A program made the translations under genes and the position numbers. 64,000 bases of DNA from Nannochloropsis oceanica. Its lineage: Eukaryota > Sar > Eustigmatophyceae > Eustigmatales > Monodopsidaceae. The notes below the pieces were generated by a model that saw nothing but the letters and a program-made list of their open reading frames with translations, was not told where the DNA came from and searched no databases. Of the stretch, positions 7,090 to 23,394 are shown in pieces. The stretch lies in the NCBI GenBank assembly GCA_004519485.1, contig CP038117.1:703501-767500 (forward strand), written 5' to 3'. The first letter of the stretch is position 1. Each line of letters opens with the position of its first letter.

Positions 7090-10000
7090 ATGATGTCCTC
7101 AGTCTCCTCCCCGTCATCTCTCGAGGATGATGTGCCCCCCGCCTCGCAGCAACCACAGCAAGAAGAAGCGGCGGCCGCATCTACTCCTCCAGCCACCACC
7201 ACGTTGTCTGCATCAATCGATGCCAGGCCACCCACGATTTATCGCGACCTGGGCATGGAGGAAAGCCCTCAGCGGCGGGATCGGAGTGGCAGCACGGCCA
7301 GCAACAGCAGCGGAGGCGGTAGTGGGGGCATAAATGAAGGACTCCACACTCTCCCGCCCTCGCCATTTTCTTCTAGAATACCAGGGAATGTTGTGCCGCC
7401 GATGTCTTCATTCGTTTGGTCTTCTTCGTCCTCGTCTTCGGTGGTAGCGGCTGCTGTTGCTGTTGCCAGCAGTAGCATGGCTGAGGCTTCGATGCCGGGG
7501 CCGGAGGAGAGCAACACCTCGACCAGCACGCTGGACGGTTCTGTAGTCGCTCATGGCAGCAGTAGCACTTGTAGCATTAGGAGGGAAGCATCGCCTTTAT
7601 CACTACAAGAGCAAAATCAAGGGATGTGTATGGAGGAGGAGGAGGAGGAGGGGGAGGGGGAGGAGGAAGGGAAGGAGGAGGATGACGACGACGACTTTGT
7701 GCGGATAGAACCAGATATGCACCGAGGCCACGTGGAAGTTCGCGTCTTGAAAGAGGGCTGGTTGCAGAAGCAAAGCTTTCGTGTGGTGGATGGTCGTCCA
7801 ACCATATGGCGTCACTTTGCCTTTTGGAAACTACGGTATTTTGTCTTGGGCTCGGATGGGGTCTTGCGCTATTACAAAGACAAGGAGCTCCAGAAGTTCC
7901 GGCGGGCGATTCCACTGGCGGGGATGGAAGTGACAGATCATTTTTATGCGCCGGTGGATCATGATCAGATCATGGAGGGAGGAAAGGAGGAAGGGGAGGG
8001 GGGTTTGATGTCGAGTGTGACGATGATGGCGGCGGCGGTGGGCTCGGCGGAGGACCGGATGGCGGAAAAGGGGGGAAGGTGTCTGATTGTTCGTCCGAAG
8101 CAAATGCCACACCCTCTTACGAGGCGTCGGGCAGGGTCGAGTGGTGGGCAGTCGCAGCAGCAGAAGGAGTTGTTGTTGAAGGAAGAGGAGGAGATGAAGT
8201 TGCTCGCTCCATCGAAAGAGGATATGCAGGAGTGGCTTGCGGCACTCAGGGGTGAGGTGGAAGCGACCGAACGACAAGGGCAGACGCTATTCCACACGGC
8301 ATGGAGCTTGCTTCGGTCTTACGTCGATCGACCTCACGCAGAGGAGGAATGGGAGGACGGCGGGGAGCAGGGAGGACGGGTGGAGTCGGAGCGCAGCAAC
8401 AGCAGCGATTTTGTGCATGTGGAGGGGGAGGACGATCAAACCTCGCCACCGCCCTCCCACGCACCTTCTTGCCGCCAAGGACAGTCATCCTCCACCTCCA
8501 TCGGTGGGACGACTGCCGCAGCTGCTGCCGCTGCTGCGGACGTGAGCTTCGTTCCTCCCTCCGTCCCCATTCCGAGGATGAATGTGGTGATGATGGTGGT
8601 GGGCACGCGGGGCGACGTTCAGCCTTTCCTTGCCCTTGGTCAACTACTGCGGGCGCACGGGCATCGAGTGCGCTTAGCGACACATGCCATGTATCGCCCG
8701 CTAGTGGTGGAAGAGGCAGGGTTGGAGTTCTACCCGCTGGGGGGAGATCCTCTCAAGTTGTCTGCGTACATGGTGAAGACGTCTGGAAGGATTTTCCCTT
8801 TCAAGCTGCCTGGCCACGAGGAAATGATCAAAGACGTGCCGGAGCAAAGGGCGATGTTGTCGGAGATAATATTGAGCACCTGGCCGGCTTGCTCCGCCGC
8901 TGATCCCGATGACTCACTGAAGAGGGAGTTTCGAGCAGATGCGATCATCAGTAATCCGCCTGTGTACGGGCATGTACATTGCGCAGAGGCGTTGAACGTG
9001 CCATTGCACATCATGTTTCCCCAACCCTGGTCGCCGACGAAGGCCTTCCCGCACCCCTTGTCAGGCTTACCGTACCACGGGCATTGGTGCAAAGAGAATT
9101 ACTATTCATACTTGGTGGTGGACAAGTTTCTGTGGCTGGGAATCCAGGACATTGTGAATGAATTGAGGGTGGCGAGGTTGGGACTCTCGCCATTAAGGCT
9201 GGGCGAACATGGCGGAGACCTGCTCAATCGCCACCGAGTCCCCTTCGCCAAAATGTGGTCGCCCTGCCTGGTGCCCAAGCCAAAGGACTGGGGTCCGCAC
9301 ATCGACGTTGTTGGACATTTTTTTGGACCTCAGACCACCGGCACTCCGCCGGGGGCCGAGGCCTTGGAGGCATGGCTCCGACCAGCTGCCCCAGGACTTC
9401 CCCCCCCGGAACCTCCGATTTTTGTGGGGTTTGGGAGTATGGTCATTTCGGATGCTCGCTCCCTGGTGGCGATGATTTTAGAAGCGGCCCGCTTGACCGG
9501 AACGAGAGTCATCCTCCAATCCTCCTGGACGGAACTCCCCGTGCCTTCCTCCACGTCCTCATCCTTCACCCCGTCTTCGTCCTCCTCCAGCGATGTCTTT
9601 TCTATCGGAAATTGTCCCCACGATTGGCTGCTGAAACGCTGCTGTGCCGTCATTCATCACGGAGGTGCCGGCACCGTCGCCGCGGGCCTCCGCGCAGGGA
9701 AGCCGACGATGGTCTGTCCTTTTTTCGGGGATCAATTTTTCTGGGGCCAAATGGTACATCAGGCGCACGTGGGTGTGAGGCCTATTCCAGTCGTGCAACT
9801 GACAGCAGAGAAGCTGGCGGCGGCTTTCCAGGAATTGAGATCGCCGAGTTTGGTGGCGGCGGCGGAGATGCTGGCACAGCGATTGGCGAGGGAGGATGGG
9901 GCGAAGGAGGGGTTGAGAGCTTTTTATCGGCACTTGCCTGTGGAGGATATGGTGTGTGACGTGAGCTTGTTCATGGGAAAGCCGCTGTTGGCGCGTATAT

Positions 10001-10728
10001 TTTGTTCGACCTGTGGGTTGAAGATGTCAGCGGAGGCCCACGCGGCTGTACACGAATGCTCCTCCGAGGAGGGGCGGGAGGAGGGGGAGGAGGGGGTGTT
10101 GCTCTCGGAACATCATGATGTGCATGGATATTCAGCTATGGATTGGGCAAGCATGTTGGGGCCGAAGGACGCGACGGAGGGTTTGGTCCAAGGCCTCACC
10201 TCGCTGACGCACGAGTGTCTGGGAAGCATGGCTGGAGTCGTAACGGAGCCCGTGGTAGGGGCGCAGAAGACGGGGATGCGAGGAGCAGCGAGAGGTTTAG
10301 CATCAGGCTTGGCCAATCTGATAAGGAGGCCGATTCGGGGAGGTTTCATCTTTGTGGATAAAGTTACGGCGGGTGTGAGTAATCAGCTTCATCTCCAGCA
10401 GCACGGTGGGGGAAAGAGTTTGTCTTCCTCCCCTTCTTCAGTCTTGTCCTCCTCCTCATCCACGTCGCCACCGTCCACCACTTCCTGGCCTGGGGGGGAG
10501 AAGCGGGAAGGAGGGAGGGGAGGATCAGGAGGAGGGAAAGAGGGTGGCGTTGTTCTATCACCGGAGTTGGTGGCTGAGTTGAAGGCGGCTCAAGTGCAGG
10601 CGCTTCGATGTAAAAAAATGTTTTTAAGATTGAGTAAAGGGGATCCACGGTGTGTGCCCAAGGAGGGGGTGCTGCGTTTATTGGAGGACATGGGTGGAGG
10701 AGTAAAAAGCAGGAGCGGTAGCAGTAGT

Positions 10729-10762
<34 letters not shown>

Positions 10763-11199
10763 GCGGCTTCAGCGGTGGCAGCAGTGGGATTGGCGCAAGT
10801 TTGTCGTTTCATTTAGAGCAACAGCAACAGCAACTGCAGGAGACGAGGGTGTTGTCAAAAGCCTTACTTGATCGAATCGATGCGGTTGGCGCCGGCCACA
10901 TATCGTTCCAGCAGTTCTGTGTCCTCTTCAAAGCACTTCGACAGGGGGGGTTGTTACAGCAGCAGCAAGCAGAGAGGAGAGGAAGTGAGGGAGGTGATGA
11001 AGGTGCAGCTTCACTTATGGCTACGACGGTGGCAGCAACAGAAATGGCCGTAGCTGCAGCAACAGCAACAGCAACAGCAACAGCAGGACTTGGGAAGGTG
11101 GTGGGTGAAGCAGCAGCAGTAGTACCAGCAGTAGATATCGCTATAGCACCAATGGTGACCATGGTTGTAAGGGCCGGGGCAGAGCAAAGTAACAGCAGA

Positions 11200-11231
<32 letters not shown>

Positions 11232-11772
11232 TAGCAACAAGAGCAGCAAGAATACGGTGTTGGACTCCCTTATTTTTGACACGATCTTTTTAGATAAGAC
11301 GCCGCCAGGGCTTACATCTCCGGCGTCTCTTTCTCCTCTCACTTCTCCCTCGCTTCCGTCTTTTGCTTCAACTACTTGCATTCATGCTGCTGCAGAAGCA
11401 GTAGCGGAAGGAAGAAGGGGAGAGGGAGAAGAGGGGCCCGAAAGTGGGAAGGATCAAGAGCACGAGGGAGAAGACGGCTGCGACAGCGGCGAGAAAGCAG
11501 ACGAGGATACTCGGAGCCATGTTTCCTCTTCCTCCACTTCCTCCTCAGAATCCATGGAAGACATCGAGATTCAAGTCGAGTTACCTGCGGCCTCCGAGAA
11601 TACCACCAGCCAGGGAAGACGAGGGGGAGGAGGGGGGGAGGAAGCAAGAAAGGGCAATGTTCAAGGGGAGGAGAAGCGATCGGTGGTGGAGGAGAGAGAT
11701 GAGGACAAGGAGGAAAAGCATGTGGCGAATGCCAGAGCTGCTGCATTGTTTGCTGTTGTGGAGCGAGGATGA
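7090..11772 (+). CDS. PH-domain UDP-glucose:sterol glucosyltransferase (UGT80/Atg26-like)
   Basis: A single-exon frame of 1560 residues. After a Ser-rich and acidic N-terminus comes a PH domain (about 212-390) starting VEVRVLKEGWLQKQ and split by a low-complexity insert. The GT28/GT-B fold starts near 497 (MMVVGTRGDVQPFLALG) and carries the UDP-sugar and acceptor motif near 855 (HHGGAGTVAAGLRAGKPT, then FFGDQFFWG), as in sterol 3-beta-glucosyltransferases. Next come a CSTCG...HECS cysteine cluster, a Gly-rich amphipathic segment (GLASGLANLIRRPIRGG) and a degenerate EF-hand (near 1258-1282, IDAVGAGHISFQQF) that lacks key calcium ligands. Poly-Ser, Gln/Ala and Glu tracts from AGC, GCA and GAG repeats separate the domains. 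It probably acts at phosphoinositide membranes and makes steryl glucosides. The lipid specificity is inferred. Confidence 0.9.
10730..10761 (+). repeat. (AGC)n microsatellite inside the glucosyltransferase CDS
   Basis: A run of AGC codons encodes poly-Ser in the linker before the degenerate EF-hand. A similar AGC run lies near 11200-11230. Both are likely to vary in length between strains without changing frame. Confidence 0.85.
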
Positions 11773-12899: not shown

Positions 12900-15370
12900 A
12901 TGAGCCGCATCGGCGGTCACCAAGGCGAGGGTGGTGCAAGCAGCGGTGAAGGTAGTTGCGGCCGCGGAGGTGGCCGAGTAACCATCACGACGGAGCCCCC
13001 CACGATTGATGTGAGTCTTTTGATGCTGTCCCACCAAACATAATTGCACCTCTGCAACCCACTAATATGCGTCTTTCTCTTCCCTCTCTCGCACAATTTT
13101 GAACGCACCTACAGTCCTCTGTCCGCTTGGAGGACGGAGAACAAGGAAACGACGACATGATTTCCTCGCCCTTGCCTCGAGGTTTGGCATCCCCCACCAG
13201 CGCGGCCGAAGCTACAGCAGCAGAAGCAGTAGATGTGCTGTCTTATAACTCAAGCCTGTGTCGGAAACGAAGGCGGGCGGCAGGCCGCAATGACAAGACT
13301 CTGCTCGACGACGGTGGCGGGGGGGGGGGGAGTGAGGACGGAGCCAATGCCTCGTCTTCCTCCCCCTTGTCCTCCTCCTCTTACTTGTCCCGAAGCCGCT
13401 CCCTACCCGTGTTGGTGGCGACACGACAGCACCACTATCACCATCAGCAGAAACAATTATTATTGCAGCCAACACCGACATACTTGCCGGCCACGGGGGA
13501 GTATGCGTCTGAGATGTTGCAATTAATGCGACGCTTGCGAGACAATGGAGCATTGTGCGATGTGATCGTGCGTGGAGATAAAGTGGAAGTAAAGGCACAT
13601 CGCTTAGTATTGGCGGCGGCGAGTGAGTATTTCCGGGCTTGTTTGACGGGACCGATGCAGGAGAGCTCGGATAAAGTGATCGCGCTTTCGGGGATAGATG
13701 ATGAGGCGTTGGGTGAGTTGATTAATTTCGCCTATTGTGGCCGGGTGTCCCTGACGGAGGAGACAGTGTTGGAGCTGCTGGTGGCTGCCAACAGGCTACA
13801 GATGCCGCAGGTGGTTACACAATGTTGTGATTTTCTGTTGCAGCGGATGGACTGTGGGAACTGTTTGACGATTTTGGGGATCGCGAATACGTATCATTGT
13901 TCGCATATGCGGACGAAGGCCGAGGCTTACATCCACCGGCACTTTGAATCGGTATATTTGGGCGAGGAATTTTTAGCCATGTCGCTTGAGCAACTTGTTC
14001 AGCTTTTGGCCAGTGACGCAGTGAGTGTATCGTCGGAAGAGATTATTTTTCGGGCGGCAGTCCGGTGGATGACCCATGCCTTTGAAACACGCCGCGCCCA
14101 CATCCTGCCCCTCCTCCGAACCGTCCGCCTGCAGCTCGTCCCTACCTCCTTTATTGCCGATGTCATCCACCAACATGACCTCGTCCAACAGTGCCCGGAA
14201 GCTCAAAATCTCCTCCTGCAAGCGTATAGATGGCATAATTCTGCCCGTTCAGACGCACGAAGGCAAGCGTTTCATTTTGTTCGACAACAGGCGATCCGTC
14301 GGGTGATTTATGCGATTGGCGGCGATGACGGACACGACGACCGCAACCCCTACTGCACCGTCATGAGTTTGGACATGCAGATGGGGATGTGGCGTAGCGT
14401 GGCACCGCTGCAGCAAAAGCGGTCGGTGTGTGGAGCGGCGGCGTTGGGGGGTAAGATTTATGTGGTGGGGGGTTACAATGGCGAGAGAGCTGTAGAGACT
14501 GTCGAGGAGTTCGATCCAAGCACAAATAGCTGGAGGAATGTCGCTAGTCTGAGTCAGAGACGCTGTTCGTGTGGTTGTGCTGTGTTGGATGGGCTGCTTT
14601 ATGTGGTGGGAGGGGTATGTGGGCCACTGGCTTTGAGTGAGGTGGAGAGGTATGACCCTGTGGTGGATGAATGGACAAGGATCTCCCCGATGCAAGATGG
14701 CAGGTCGGGGTGTGGGGTGGCGGAGTTGGGAGGGCTGATATACGCTGTGGGGGGGATAAGTGGGAATGGGGAGACCGTTTGTACGGCGGAATGTTTTGAT
14801 CCCAAGACGCAACGGTGGCAGAGTGTGCAAAACATGCATGAGGCGAGGAGGAGTTTTGGGTTGGCGGCGATAGGGGGCTTGTTGTACGCATGTGGGGGGA
14901 ATGATGGAGTGAATGATCTGAATTCGTTGGAGGTGTACAATCCGAGAACAAATCGATGGAAGCCCTCAGGGCCGATGAGGTATGCAAGGATGTATTGCTC
15001 CGTGGCGGTTTTGGATGGGAAACTTTACGCCGTAGGAGGGCTAGATGGCACGACCACCCTGGATGTGGTGGAGATGTATGACCCGGAAAGGGGCGCGTGG
15101 TGCGAGGTGCTGCCCAGGCTGGATCGTTCTGTGTGTGGGTGTGGGTTGGCTGTGATGGATTGTGTGGTGCGACCACTTATAGGGCAAGGGAAGGAGGGGG
15201 AGGAGGCGAAGGGGGGAAGGAGGGTGAAGGAGGGGATTTCGGACAGGAGGAGAAGAGTGAGGGAGGAGGGGGGGGGGGGAGGAAGAGGCGGGGGGGGGAG
15301 GAGGAGAAGGATGAGGAAGGGGAGGGTGAAGGAGAATAAGATGGAGGACGACGAGGACGACGAGAAGTGA
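12900..15370 (+). CDS. BTB-BACK-Kelch protein (KLHL-type CUL3 adaptor)
   Basis: Two exons, 12900-13010 and 13115-15370 (phase 0), give 788 residues. KLHL proteins are substrate adaptors of CUL3 ubiquitin ligases: BTB binds CUL3 and the Kelch propeller binds substrate. BTB starts near residue 180 (LCDVIVRGDKVEVKAHRLVL), BACK follows (CGNCLTILGIANTYHC), then six Kelch blades from about 430 to 700, each with a GG doublet (YVVGGYNGE, YAVGGLDGT and others) and a spaced Tyr/Trp. The N-terminal 150 residues are Ser/Gly-rich; the C-terminal 60 residues are a Lys/Arg/Gly tail ending in acidic residues, not typical of KLHL proteins. G homopolymers of 9-12 bases at 13319-13330 and 15268-15298 encode Gly and could hide indels. 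The substrate is unknown. Confidence 0.92.
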
Positions 15371-16218: not shown

Positions 16219-18834
16219 TTAGACACTGCCTGCCGTGATATCCGATTCAAATCCGCATTCGTCCTGTCCCCGGATAATGCGGAAAAGACCCTCATCACCC
16301 CATGCCTGGGAATGTACATGGTGTATGCATGTTTCCACGTTTGAGTCGGCATGAGTGGCCTTCTGTAAGCGACACGCGAATTCGACAAAAATGTCACCCG
16401 GACAAAAAATCGCCAAGAAAACAACAAACGCAAAAAATGACGAAAAGACAACCTTCCCTCCCCCCCTCCCTCCCTCCATCCCTCCATCCCTCCCTATCTC
16501 TCCCATCGTACCTTGTTCCACGAGTTGACGACGAGCCAGTACGGTGTCCCGTTCTCCACGCCCCACCCAATCAACCTGCGCAGAAAGAGTTTTTTTTTGG
16601 AATATGAAACTAAGTGAATGACTTGAAAAACGAAAGGGAATAGAATGAGGTCCGGAAGTCTATCCTCCTCCTCCTCCTCCTCCTCCTCCTCCTCCTCCTC
16701 CTCCTCCTCCTCCTCCTCCCCCCTTCCCCTCGCTTACTTGACCGCATGGCCCCCCAACGGTGCGCCCGTTACGTGGGTGTAGACGCCTTCCCCCGAGTAG
16801 GCCAGAAAGTCCTGATACACCGTAAATGCCGCCGACACCGGCCCATTTTCCATGATTTCCTTCTGGATCTCCTCTACCTTGGCCCTCACGGCATACCCGG
16901 CCGTCCCCATCCGCTTGTCCTCCTTATAGTCCTTCTCGAACTCTTCCTCCGAGCAACTATGCTTGCATTTGGGTGTCTCAAAATCTTCCGCGGGGCACGC
17001 AGGCAATTCTTCCGTCGGTTCCACGTGGTGCGCACACGTCAAGAAAGGGTAAGGCAAGCACGAGTCTCCCGAGCCGACCTCTTCGAACAGCCCGCCCGAC
17101 ACCACCCCCTGGGAGGCGAAAAAGGCCCAGGCCCCAGCCGGTTGTCCGCCGTTGCACCCTTGAGAAAATCCGCAGGCCATGCCACTGCAGCAGGCGAGGG
17201 TGTCGGTGGGGGAAAGGAGGTCCTTGGAGCCGTGCACTACGCCAAGAAAAGGAGGGAGAGAGGGAGGAAAGGAGGGAGGGTGAGTAGAAAGTTGGAGAGG
17301 AAGGGGGGGGGGGGAATAGAATAGAGACGTACCGATGCACTGCCTGTCCTCGAAAGCGGCAGAGCTGGCAAAAGCCCAGCACGAGCCACAGGCACTCTGA
17401 TCCTTGACCTACGGAAAGAAGGAAGGAGGGAGGAGAGGAGAGGTGACATTCATCTTCACATGACAGATCGTACGCCGCGGTGCCCTTGCCTACATCCATA
17501 CCTTGCCGATAACCTCGCTACACGCCGGCCACGCCTCTCGCGAGTCGAAACTTTCAGGAATCGTCACATTATCCCCTTTGTCTGTCACACCAAAAACCTG
17601 GTCCTTGTACGGTAAAGTCATGTGCAATGGATGCCCCCTCAGCCACGTCCCCATCATTCCCTGCACTTGCTTCAGGTTCGCGCCAGCAAATCTGGGGGAG
17701 AAATGCGGCGTCCACGTCGTGCCGCTCATCAACACGTCAGTGACCAATGACGAATCAATTGCAGGGAGGCGCCCAAGGTGCTCCAGAGTATACTCACCCA
17801 CCGCCAGCTCAATCTCGACCTCAGTGCAACTGATTACGCCCGTGGCATCCGAGGCCTGGACGACTGCCTTGAGGTCCTTGACGGGAGGAATACCCTCGGG
17901 GAGTGTTTGGGTAGCGGATACTTGGACGGCTTCGCCTGCTTTCAGAGGGCAGGTCAGGCTGGTTTGGCTGCACATGTCCACGCTGTGTTCGAAGACCTGT
18001 GTTGTAGCGTGGGAGGACCATGAATTGATTTGAGTAAATTTTAGTGTTGCGGCTGCTGGTGTTGCGGCTGCTGTTGCAGCTGCTTACGACACCAACGCGC
18101 AAGCGAATTCGAACCACCTTACCTTACTTACATTTTACCTTACTATGCATATATATAGACACAGAGAGAGACAGAGAGAGACAGAGAGGGATGCAGACGC
18201 ACACAAATACACGTATACACTCATACCTGCATGTTTTTGATCATGACAGCGGCGGATAGCTTAGTCCCGGACACGATGTCTTTGGTCGGGTTGAAAACGA
18301 CCGTAAACGTGGTAGGATGTCCTGGGTGGATGGGCCATTCAGACACCACCAATTTGGTCACACCTTTTTGAGGGTGGGGGAAGGGGTTGTATTGAAAATT
18401 TGGTGTGTAAATGGTGAGCGGCGTGTGAAAAATGCTGGAACAATACGAAAGGGAAGTAGAACACAAACTAACACATCAAAATAGATTACATCTGTCACCA
18501 AGATTATAATGAATATCTTGGCTATGAGCATAAACCAATGAGCCCCTGGCCCGGCGAGGAACACAGCGACAACAGGGAAGGCAGGAATTTCCGGGCTCAA
18601 CACGCCATTGAGATAAACCAAGGGGCCAAAGACAAGACACATGCTTCAAATGGGCACATAATTATTACACTCAGTCCAGGCGAGCACCCACACACACTCA
18701 CGGACAAACAAAGAACGATCAGTACGCAACTCACCTAGAGCATCGCTTGAGGAGCAAGACGAAAAGGGGACGTCCACGGCGGCTGTCACGCCCACGGTCA
18801 CAGCCAGGGCTAGGCTGCGCCCAAAAAAATGCAT
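16219..18834 (-). CDS. Secreted/lysosomal fusion: ML (NPC2-like) lipid-binding domain + cathepsin B
   Basis: Seven exons are inferred on the minus strand: 18834-18735, 18363-18227, 17996-17502, 17408-17333, 17236-16738, 16575-16512 and 16305-16219. They total 485 residues and all phases agree. Residues 1-20 are a signal peptide ([19 protein letters not shown]). An ML domain follows ([14 protein letters not shown], then [16 protein letters not shown], ending [10 protein letters not shown]). Without interruption the frame continues into a cathepsin B propeptide ([12 protein letters not shown]) and mature C1A peptidase with catalytic Cys in [12 protein letters not shown], occluding-loop double His in CAHHVEP, catalytic His in GGHAVKLIGWG and Asn in VNSWNK, ending [18 protein letters not shown] lysosomal/vacuolar protease with a lipid-binding module is inferred. 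An alternative is two genes, but the ML-to-propeptide junction lies inside one exon. Confidence 0.88.
16663..16720. repeat. (TCC)n microsatellite in a cathepsin intron
   Basis: About 19 TCC triplets lie in the intron 16737-16576. On the sense (minus) strand of the gene this is a GGA repeat, so it is not the polypyrimidine tract. Confidence 0.9.
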
Positions 18835-19937: not shown

Positions 19938-22900
19938 TCACCCAAACGCCCCTAGGAAGAAGATAGCCGTAGTCGTAACCATTCCCAGTCTGCCCACCAC
20001 TCGCTCCTGCTCCTTCAGCCACGCCAACGGAAAAGTCCTCGTCAAACAAGCTGAAGTTCCTCCAAGCCCTCCCTGCTGTATGTTCAATCCACTGCCCCTA
20101 ATACTGCAACTACTATCCCCCACCTCTCCCTCTATACTATGCTTCCCTCCCTCAGCCGCAGCCGCCCACGACGCTTCCTCGTTAGCTGATACTTGTGCTG
20201 CAGCTGGTACACTCCCACGTCCTGCCATCCGCCGGCGCCTCATATTCTGATATCGGGTATTGAAAGCGACCGTTTCAGGCACGATTCCGCCGAGCACCTC
20301 GCCCGCTCCCACCAAGCTCAGCGTCTGAAAATTTTCTAGCGACGATAAAGGAGGAAATGCAGCATTTAACCAGGGAGCAAAATTAAGAACACTCCAAGTC
20401 GCACCCGAAGCAGCAGCCGCTGCAGCTGCCGCTCCAGAGGTCGCCGCTTCCATAAACATCTCCTCCGCGCCGGATTCTTCCAGCACTGCCGCTGCTGATG
20501 CTGCTGCCGTGATATCCATTTCCATCAACCCTCCTCCTCCTGCCCCGAAATCTCCGCCTCCGCTTACTGCCGCGAGGAGAGCATGTAAGAATCCGTATGT
20601 AAGCACACCAAGGGCAAGGCGCCCGTGGCGAAGCTCGCATTCACGGAGCCAGATTATCTCTCCACTGTCCCAGACACTTTCCGGTTCTTTGATTTTGACT
20701 TGTCCAAAGACTTTCTTCTTTTCTTCGCGGCGAGCTCGAGTGGGGGATGTACCCCACATTTTATTCGAGAGCAAGTCGGTTGATGAAGAGGAGGACGAAG
20801 AAGAGGAAAAGGAGAGGCTGCTGCTTCTACTGATGCTCCTGTCGGCATTGCCAATCAAACACCAGGGCCACACAAAGAGCGGAGCCTGCCAGATCCACAA
20901 CACCTCTCCCTCTTCCCTTGATGCTGCTGTCCCCTCCCCCGCTGCTGTTTTCGCGGCTGTCCAGGAGTCACTCTTCCCCGACCCCTCCATTTTCGCATGA
21001 TACACAAAATCAACCACATCACCCGTCCGCAAAGGCCGAGATAAGCTCACCCGCTGACCATTCACCGAGGCACCTGCCACCTCCAACTGCTGCATCGGCG
21101 TCACAACAGCACTGCTGCTTCTGCTGCTACTGCTGAGAAGTTGTGCTGTCGCTGCTTCACGCACCGTTACCGCTGCTTCTCCTTCAGGGACGTCGAGAGA
21201 TAAGACCTCCCCGTCGCTGGTTAGGACCAGGCGCTTCACTGCTAGCTGCTCTTGCAGCGTGCCGATAATTTGCTGCGCTGTCAAGGTCGGCTCTTCTCTG
21301 ACCACCCTCTTGGTCTGTGCTGACAAAGACTGGAGCCATCCTAACTCGAGAGGCACTGCCGCTGCTGCTGCTGCTGATGATGATGATGCTGATGCTGTCC
21401 CCGCTGCCGGAGAAATGCCTCCTGCCCCTCTGAGCAACAATGGCTGGTGCTGCTCCATCACGTTACTACTCGTCGTTCTCGTCGTTGGCCCATCCCACAA
21501 AGCCAATAACCCAAACTGCGCGACCTGGTCCATCCAGTCAGTGCTCACGTGCACCTCCAAGGGAAATGGAAACCCAGGTACTCTCAAATCGTCATGCAAT
21601 GCCTGATAGCCGTTATCCAAGGGAAAGGAAATGAAATCACGCACGCTGCTGTGCAGGGAGGGAGAACGAAGCTCCGCCTGAATCTCCTCCATGACCATCA
21701 TACACAACGCCCGGTCTGCTTTTAGGTCTCGTCGCTGTGTTCGTCGAGGACTCGAAGAAGGAGTGGGGGGAGGGAGGGAGGAAGCAGTAATTTCGCCCCA
21801 GCTGCTGGGACCCGCGACGTGCTCCGAGGAGACGACTACCTTAAGAGTTAGGAGGTCAGGTTGTGTGTCGACGGGGCCGAGCACGGAAGCGTTTCGGGTG
21901 AATAAGTGATACGGTTGTTTTTCCTCAAGACGGACGGAGACATCGTGTCCTTTCAGTGCTCCTCTGGATCTGAGCAGGCGAGGGAGGGCTTCTGTCAGGG
22001 CATCCGTCATGCTTAGCCGCTGGCCACCAAAACGGTTCGTGTGCAGGGAGGCCAGAAGTTCGTGACGCTTTTCCAGGGCGCGGGTCATGGCGGCATGTTG
22101 GGAAGGATGAAGGGTTTGGAAGGAGAGGTCTTCCAGCTCTGTTTTTAGGCGCCATACTCCGAGCTTGCGGGCGAGGGGGACATAGACGTCCTGTGTCGGT
22201 AACGGAGAAGAGGTAGAAAGATAAAAGAAAGAGGGACACATGTGTTCCTAGATTTTAGTCGTAGTCTTTGTCTTTTATTAAAGCAAATCTAAATCTATCA
22301 TAACTGACGGGTCAAACCCAAAAAACAGGACAAATACGTACCAGCGTCTCCCTCGCAATCTTCATCTGTTTTGCTGGCGACATAAATCCAAGCGTCCGCA
22401 TGTTATGCAATCTATCAGCGAGCTTCACTACCAAAACTCTAAAATCCTGCGCCATTGCCATCAGCAAATGTAAAAGGTTGGCCAACTGATCGTCAGTCAT
22501 AGGCGGGGCCAACACTGCCTCCCCCCCTTCCGTCCCACTCCTCACAGCAGGAGCTACGGCACAGTCCGCGTTCCGGCTCAGGCACTTGGGCAATTTGCTA
22601 ACCTTCGTCTCGCCCTCAACAAGCCTCCGTACAGCAGCGCCAAACACAGCTTGCACGTCCGCCACAGAGACAGGAGTATCCTCGACAGTGTCGTGCAACA
22701 AGCCTGCTGTTATCGAATCAGCGTCCATGCCCAACTCACACAAAATCTTCGCCACCTCAATCGGGTGCCTCACAAACGGCTCTCCGCTCCGTCTTACTTG
22801 ACCCAAATGGGCGTGATATGCGACTTGCAATGCCGTTTCCACCTTGGCTTGATCCTCACGGGCGGGCAAGTACGTCAACAGGGGCTGCAACTCTTCCCAT

Positions 22901-23394
22901 GCTTGCTCCAGAAAAGCAGCATCGGCAGGGGAGACGCACCACCCGTGAATCACGAAAAGTTTGTTCAAACCACGCTCAAGACAGTCGACAACCTTTTCGG
23001 CATCGGCAGCCGAAAGGGCCGCGGCTTCGGGGTCTTGTTGTTGCTCAGAGATGGATGGTGTGGAAGAAGAGCAGGAAGGGGGCATGAGAGGACGAGGATC
23101 CTTGGGGATGCGAAGGAGGGATTCAAAACCAAACGTCGAGGCATGGAGTGGGAGTGGCGCATGGTGAGGGAGTGAAGGCAGTGGTGTCAATGGTGCGGTC
23201 GATTGCCAGGGTGTCCGCTGATGGTGCTGATGATATGGATGCCGTGCGCGGATGCATGATTCGGAAGAGGATGGCGGAAAGAGGGGCACGACAAAGCCTT
23301 CACCCCTTCGACCAGATCCGAATGCCACTAAAAAGATCAGGAGGTGCTTGCAGTAGTGATGCCGCTGTGGCGGATTGTCTTTCCCCGTTCTCAT
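19938..23394 (-). CDS. Plastid RelA/SpoT homologue (ppGpp enzyme) fused to a light-harvesting-like (LHC) C-terminus
   Basis: Two exons, 23394-22342 and 22190-19938 (phase 0), give 1101 residues. A hydrophobic N-terminus and a GEGF motif near residue 33 suggest bipartite plastid targeting. The HD hydrolase domain (about 185-345) keeps HPIEVAKIL and the HDTVEDT motif (234-240). The synthetase domain (about 430-585) keeps DLLTLKVVV, NGYQALH and LEVHVS but is diverged, with an insert near 480-505. A TGS domain lies at about 670-750 (VLTSDGEVLSLDVPEG, VNGQRVSLSRPL). From 862 the protein reads like an LHC protein: ECELRHGRLALG (E870 to R875) and, at the very C-terminus, KEQERVVGRLGM (E1080 to R1085), each leading into a hydrophobic helix. 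Family knowledge: RSH proteins make and degrade ppGpp, and plastid forms control chloroplast transcription and translation. Thylakoid anchoring is inferred. Confidence 0.88.

Follow-up and report, generated by a model that had tools for sequence, protein, structure and literature searches.

We analysed a window of 64,000 nucleotides from the eustigmatophyte alga Nannochloropsis oceanica (NCBI GenBank assembly GCA_004519485.1, contig CP038117.1, positions 703,501 to 767,500 of the forward strand; the coordinates below are those of the window), and more precisely a gene of its minus strand (19938-23394) that encodes a RelA/SpoT homologue (RSH) extended by a C-terminal domain of the light-harvesting complex (LHC) type. 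The sequence establishes the fusion itself, the homology of its C-terminus to LHC proteins, an intact hydrolase motif next to a broken synthetase motif, and the grouping of proteins of this design in a single ochrophyte branch of RSHs. Our preferred reading, held with reasonable confidence, is that the product would be a plastid hydrolase of guanosine tetraphosphate (ppGpp) which has lost its synthetase activity and is anchored in the thylakoid, its LHC module occupying the position at which RSHs usually have a regulatory tail.

The gene comprises two exons (all features of the gene given below lie on the minus strand). Exon 1 (22342-23394) encodes residues 1-351, i.e., the presequence and most of the HD domain (Pfam HD_4, 3.8e-34, with the HDTVED and KLADRLHNMRT motifs). 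The intron (22191-22341) is bounded by GT..AG, with the same junction as in the NCBI N. oceanica protein VYU27_008352 (P0001 in our numbering of the compared proteins), and exon 2 (19938-22190) encodes residues 352-1101 and the stop codon, i.e., the end of the HD domain, a pseudo-synthetase, the TGS domain, a linker, and the LHC-type domain. Once joined, the exons give 1101 amino acids (aa) and one stop, which is terminal. The resulting domain order is a plastid presequence (GEGF), HD, a degenerate RelA_SpoT domain (SYN, the synthetase), TGS, a WPW linker, and, at the C-terminus, a domain spanning about 245 aa. Because SYN, TGS, and the C-terminus lie in the single unbroken frame of exon 2, the fusion is not the product of joining two gene models, and the protein does continue past its TGS domain, as a preliminary description of this DNA had claimed. 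VYU27_008352 is 100% identical to the encoded RSH over the queried C-terminus and differs from it at the start and at at least one residue elsewhere; its predicted start is residue 104, so that the part encoded further upstream (23086-23394), with the likely plastid presequence, is left out of this model.

The C-terminal domain contains three predicted LHC-type helices. Helix 1 (residues 857-895, 20559-20675) carries E870 xx H873 x R875; helix 2 (residues 968-1009, 20217-20342) carries E982, invariant in the 15 proteins compared below; and helix 3 (residues 1073-1100, 19944-20027) carries E1080 ... G1084 R1085 and ends one residue short of the C-terminus. Among all 19-aa windows of the protein, the highest hydrophobicity values belong to those starting at residue 876 (1.81) and residue 1082 (1.62), and the second of these ends at the C-terminus. 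The helix-2 window, starting at residue 975 (1.29), ranks fourth, after one in the HD domain. Structure modelling of the domain, at low model confidence, suggests three helices that align to LHC chains. The preliminary description had recognized LHC-type helices from two motifs sharing a Glu-Arg spacing (E870/R875 and E1080/R1085), the second of them leading into a hydrophobic helix up to the C-terminus. Both helices, the named residues (together with H873), and the terminal hydrophobic stretch were recovered, but the third LHC-like helix (around residues 968-1009, with E982) had been overlooked. Between the TGS and LHC domains lies a WPW-type element, FVWPWCLIGN (residues 790-799, 20847-20876), whose Pro is kept in 14 of 15 relatives and its Trp-Pro in 13, and to which we assigned no known motif.

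The comparison with the Pfam family Chloroa_b-bind (PF00504), which had been proposed as a check, gave a mixed answer. The C-terminal 270 aa do match it, with an E-value of 0.0013, but through helix 1 only and with 19.7 bits; the scores of the N. oceanica domain (15.6-19.7 bits) all lie below the family cut-off of 22.3, which speaks against our reading, and we therefore file the domain as LHC-derived and not as an antenna protein. Moreover, the Asn/His chlorophyll ligand of helix 3 is absent in N. oceanica, where V1083 takes its place, and Asn is found in only three of the 15 members.

The homology to LHC proteins is carried by the relatives and goes beyond motifs alone, through profiles and matches in PDB. 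We aligned 15 proteins sharing the layout, N. oceanica included: eight of the Nannochloropsis type (P0001 and P0002-P0008, the latter with 42-86% identity to P0001 and taken as eustigmatophyte), three brown-algal ones (P0023 from Ectocarpus, P0123 from Scytosiphon, and P0121, a EukProt entry with 79% identity to Ectocarpus), and four others (P0026 from Chrysoparadoxa, P0135 from Phaeothamnion, P0024, and P0134). The same architecture, which had been suggested as something to look for in other heterokonts, is thus found there, and the residues proposed to pair are conserved across the group: E870, H873, E982, E1080, G1084, and R1085 are identical in 15/15 and R875 in 14/15. Chloroa_b-bind is matched at E<=1 by 14 of the proteins (best 1.8e-12), and PF00504 stands in the precomputed annotation of seven relatives (P0023, P0024, P0026, P0121, P0123, P0134, and P0135). 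With a profile built from six LHC frames of N. oceanica, the 15 C-termini score 11.1-49.2 bits, versus 5.5 for the best shuffle (n=3000); three of them, including that of N. oceanica (12.7 bits, E 0.012), fall under the hmmsearch inclusion threshold. Among the 226 RSH proteins fetched from the best 120 matches of each search, 14 of the 15 members pass the LHC-profile inclusion threshold and no protein outside the 15 does; the fifteenth member, P0008 (4.1 bits), ranks under one unrelated row, P0151 (4.7).

Profile-to-profile comparison links the helices stepwise. The seven domains that are not of the Nannochloropsis type match the N. oceanica LHCs along all three helices (1.5e-16). They are in turn matched by the eight domains of the Nannochloropsis type (1.4e-13; with smaller sub-alignments, 9.6e-10 over 78 columns, covering helices 1 and 2), whose direct match to LHCs is confined to helix 1 (1.4e-6). 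Profile searches of PDB with the domain displayed almost only antenna proteins, one of these searches mostly via helix 1. The helix-1 part of the Nannochloropsis-type profile is also matched by residues 224-248 of the PDB chain 9k7v_R, named PsbR (E 0.024). When a relative's domain is compared with N. oceanica, the top match is an LHC frame on C8 (E 1.7e-8), the domain being too diverged for assignment to an LHC subfamily. In six N. oceanica LHCs, the Glu residues of helices 1 and 3 lie 94-106 positions apart. The corresponding figures are 134-210 for the Nannochloropsis-type domains and 80-143 for the seven others, except P0134 with 265; hence, long inserts are mainly a Nannochloropsis-type feature.

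It could be argued that the ExxxxR motifs arose by chance, or that annotation merged a neighbouring LHC gene with the RSH gene, and the N. oceanica domain is indeed weak by itself. Such explanations are, in our judgement, very improbable, as they are contradicted by the single open frame spanning SYN, TGS, and the helices, by the layout repeated in 15 proteins from several sources, and by the relatives, which link all three helices to LHCs. The 29 Mb genome itself also argues against them: searched with the C-terminus of P0024, it returns ten places, i.e., nine from the Chloroa_b-bind list and the LHC-RSH locus (seventh, E 0.032). Sequence comparison confirms the C-terminal domain as a divergent three-helix domain descended from an LHC protein.

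We also followed the distribution of the fusion. The protein searches were limited to candidates that had words in common with the query, and the search with the C-terminus listed only P0001-P0003, probably as poly-Ser and poly-Ala words filled the candidates. A fusion restricted to Nannochloropsis was rejected, since searches with the catalytic part and with Ectocarpus P0023 found the remaining members. A tree of the catalytic domains (44 rows, C-terminus excluded), unrooted and with few outgroups, groups 17 LHC-RSH-type rows in one branch with a support of 100/99, apart from the diatom and other plastid RSH1s and from bacteria; P0002 and P0003, which have no HD domain, and two further N. oceanica RSHs (C4 and C5) were omitted from it. 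This branch unites N. oceanica and its close kin, brown algae, Chrysoparadoxa, and Phaeothamnion. Thirteen of its rows carry the LHC domain and four are truncated (P0016, P0011, P0025, and P0019). Every member reaching past TGS to a proper end carries the helices (15/15). Helices are missing from 22 of the 25 brown-algal-type rows, 20 of which end near the stretch RFVFDPQG.ILDL (just before it, at it, or 15-90 residues past it), with tails that are unlike one another; P0016 stops inside helix 1, and P0133 soon after this same stretch. As unlike tails meet at one conserved stretch, the helix-less rows look truncated, i.e., like single-exon predictions running into an intron.

Judging by its motifs, the catalytic part has kept one of its two active sites. 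The HD domain (HD_4, E 1.7e-41) presents all of HD..ED, R.SG..HP, and DRLHN..T, and the hydrolase motif is intact wherever it is covered in the group (HD..ED in 15/15, the D and N of DRLHN in 16/16). The gene predictions of P0005 and P0008 separate HDT from VED by an insert that resembles an intron left unspliced. The RelA_SpoT domain is a remnant (residues 529-583, 21495-21659) scoring 16.7-17.1 bits, below the Pfam cut-off of 27, and in the ATP site just upstream of it, Arg is replaced by Glu and Lys by Arg in N. oceanica. Across the group, the last Lys of the synthetase motif GR.K....K is gone from 18/18 rows and the Arg from 16/18 (kept in P0006 and P0134), the middle Lys being kept in 15/18. 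Six brown-algal-type rows entered this count; the 19 remaining ones of that type were viewed separately, and the wider set of 25 agrees on a broken motif, which was not found at all in P0128. The comparison RSHs keep the Arg and both Lys in 14 cases out of 15, the exception being Klebsormidium P0154, which has lost the Arg.

The gene had been described as a ppGpp synthetase/hydrolase. Since the ATP-site motif is broken throughout the group and the HD site is intact, we reject a bifunctional RSH and file the protein as an RSH-derived hydrolase: the gene encodes a predicted ppGpp hydrolase, whose synthetase half looks dead. Two further points count against us here, i.e., the lost synthetase Lys is an Arg in seven of the eight Nannochloropsis-type rows, and some substituted RSHs are reported to retain activity (Avilan 2019, PMC6881373). 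The dead synthetase is therefore a strong prediction and no proof. Downstream, the TGS domain (residues 722-747, 21003-21080) scores 22.7-22.9 bits for a cut-off of 22.2, and TGS is matched at E<=1 in 12 of the 15 members. ACT is absent from the 12 families matched by any of the 15 at this threshold, which a very divergent ACT could escape. At the thresholds used, N. oceanica has four RSH loci (C4, C5, C6, and LHC-RSH). The C6 RSH has both HD and synthetase motifs intact and those of C4 and C5 have the synthetase motif without the HD motif; hence, judging from these motifs, the LHC-RSH gene is one of two candidate ppGpp hydrolases of this alga. The C4 RSH (L012, an open frame of 879 aa) carries, by eye, an EF-hand-like stretch, DVNRDGQLSFEEF, before its synthetase domain.

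Residues 1-34 (23293-23394) form a hydrophobic core followed by ...GEGF/VV. We read them, from sequence and hydropathy, as a heterokont bipartite plastid presequence, i.e., a signal peptide with Phe at the cleavage site, in agreement with the presequence initially proposed. A permissive small-x-small-F pattern matched 14/14 N-termini, 12 of them convincing by eye; the exceptions are P0004, whose core is weak, and P0016, where the match falls inside the core.

In LHC proteins, the N-terminus lies on the stromal side. After import, the LHC-type helices of the RSH would insert in the thylakoid with this topology, and the catalytic part would therefore face the stroma. The HD hydrolase could there clear ppGpp at the thylakoid surface, which is where both the photosynthetic machinery and the ribosomes of the plastid are regulated. 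Most probably, the helices serve as a module for anchoring and docking. The two Glu-Arg pairs that connect helix 1 with helix 3 would hold it together, perhaps along with a few pigments, and the helices could relay antenna or pigment state to the hydrolase. The three-helix domain would stand where a helical, zinc-finger, and ACT C-terminal regulatory region is usual. Since that tail senses ribosomes and turns activity on or off, the LHC module at the same place likely has a role in regulation or positioning. Thylakoid location, orientation, pigment occupancy, and regulation are what we infer from this arrangement.

Two other readings, one stronger and one weaker, have to be weighed. In LHCs, chlorophyll is bound by the Glu-Arg pairs and by the His of helix 1, and their retention in 14-15 of the 15 members speaks for a pigment-gated sensor: the LHC domain would carry chlorophyll or carotenoid and, depending on whether it is occupied or excited, turn the ppGpp hydrolase on or off, the antenna state thereby setting ppGpp. 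The position of the module, that of the usual regulatory tail, fits such a sensor. So does the statement of a 2022 review that ppGpp builds up in darkened cyanobacteria and algae in the absence of the EF-hand RSHs of plants, so that the mechanism must differ (PMC10107265); another input is then expected. We nevertheless regard this sensor as rather unlikely: the helix-3 ligand is lost in 12/15, the Glu-Arg pairs may serve folding alone, and the CAB domain of ferrochelatase is reported to show no direct pigment binding (PMC3563542). Moreover, the EF-hand-like stretch of L012 suggests that a calcium input may exist, which weakens the argument that these algae lack one; N-terminal EF-hands are described in two related RSH4 proteins (Avilan 2019, PMC6881373).

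On the other hand, the helices may be a pure membrane anchor, merely tethering the hydrolase to the thylakoid, with pigment binding lost and no sensing. The degenerate helix 3, the score under the Pfam cut-off, and the long variable inserts are consistent with this, and an enzyme with an LHC-type helix has a precedent in ferrochelatase (PMC3563542). We hold it to be quite conceivable, yet somewhat doubtful, as the helix-1 His and the helix-2 Glu, which a plain anchor does not need, are invariant in 15/15. In ferrochelatase, removal of the CAB domain raised kcat, and no direct pigment binding by this domain was detected (PMC3563542). By analogy with this domain, which tunes its enzyme without detectable pigment binding, we favour the anchored hydrolase and consider pigment sensing serious but unproven.

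The predicted hydrolase with its LHC domain, which both Nannochloropsis and brown algae have retained, offers a concrete candidate for a link between light/dark and ppGpp. The shared design suggests a direct connection between a stress signal, ppGpp, and the photosynthetic membrane, amenable to testing in N. oceanica. Were the sensor reading true, ochrophytes would possess a second-messenger enzyme that responds to pigment and directly connects light harvesting with the stringent response of the plastid. Elsewhere in the window, a PH domain and a family-28 glycosyltransferase share one open frame (7090-11772, plus strand; probably a sterol glucosyltransferase), and the neighbours, a BTB-BACK-Kelch protein (13127-15370, plus strand) and a papain-family cysteine protease exon (16734-17237, minus strand), have no tie to LHC-RSH.

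The preliminary description knew of no RSH with an LHC domain. Such a protein has in fact been mentioned, in one sentence, i.e., Ectocarpus siliculosus RSH1 with a Chlorophyll A-B binding domain, listed among the few domain acquisitions of the extended RSH1 family (Avilan et al. 2019, PMC6881373). A literature search by title and abstract start, covering few subscription journals and excluding supplements, gave no further account of an LHC-fused RSH. The novelty appears to lie in a branch conserved across several ochrophyte groups, the model alga Nannochloropsis among them, with three recognisable helices, invariant pairing residues, and a broken synthetase. Ectocarpus RSH1 has the same architecture: P0023 (HD, SYN, TGS, PF00504), which we assume to be the record of that paper, lies in the LHC-RSH branch. 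That paper treats the domain as one gain within the extended RSH1 family, whereas our comparison shows a conserved ochrophyte branch to which Nannochloropsis belongs, whose synthetase motif is broken, which gives no match to ACT, and which lies apart from the RSH1 rows of diatoms.

Land-plant RSH1 is likewise a plastid RSH with an intact hydrolase and a dead synthetase, but it has a bacteria-like C-terminal region, described with no mention of LHC helices (PMC10107265); the sole streptophyte row of our tree, Klebsormidium P0154, lies in the other half from LHC-RSH. Diatom PtRSH1 resembles LHC-RSH by its HD and TGS domains and its bipartite plastid presequence, and differs from it by an active synthetase and an ACT-type tail (PMC6881373); the diatom rows are also in the other half of the tree. 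Finally, type II ferrochelatase, with the LIL/HLIP proteins, offers the likeness of a plastid enzyme bearing a C-terminal LHC-type helix, the CAB domain. However, ferrochelatase is a tetrapyrrole enzyme that captured one HLIP-like helix, whereas LHC-RSH joins a three-helix domain to a predicted hydrolase of a nucleotide signal.
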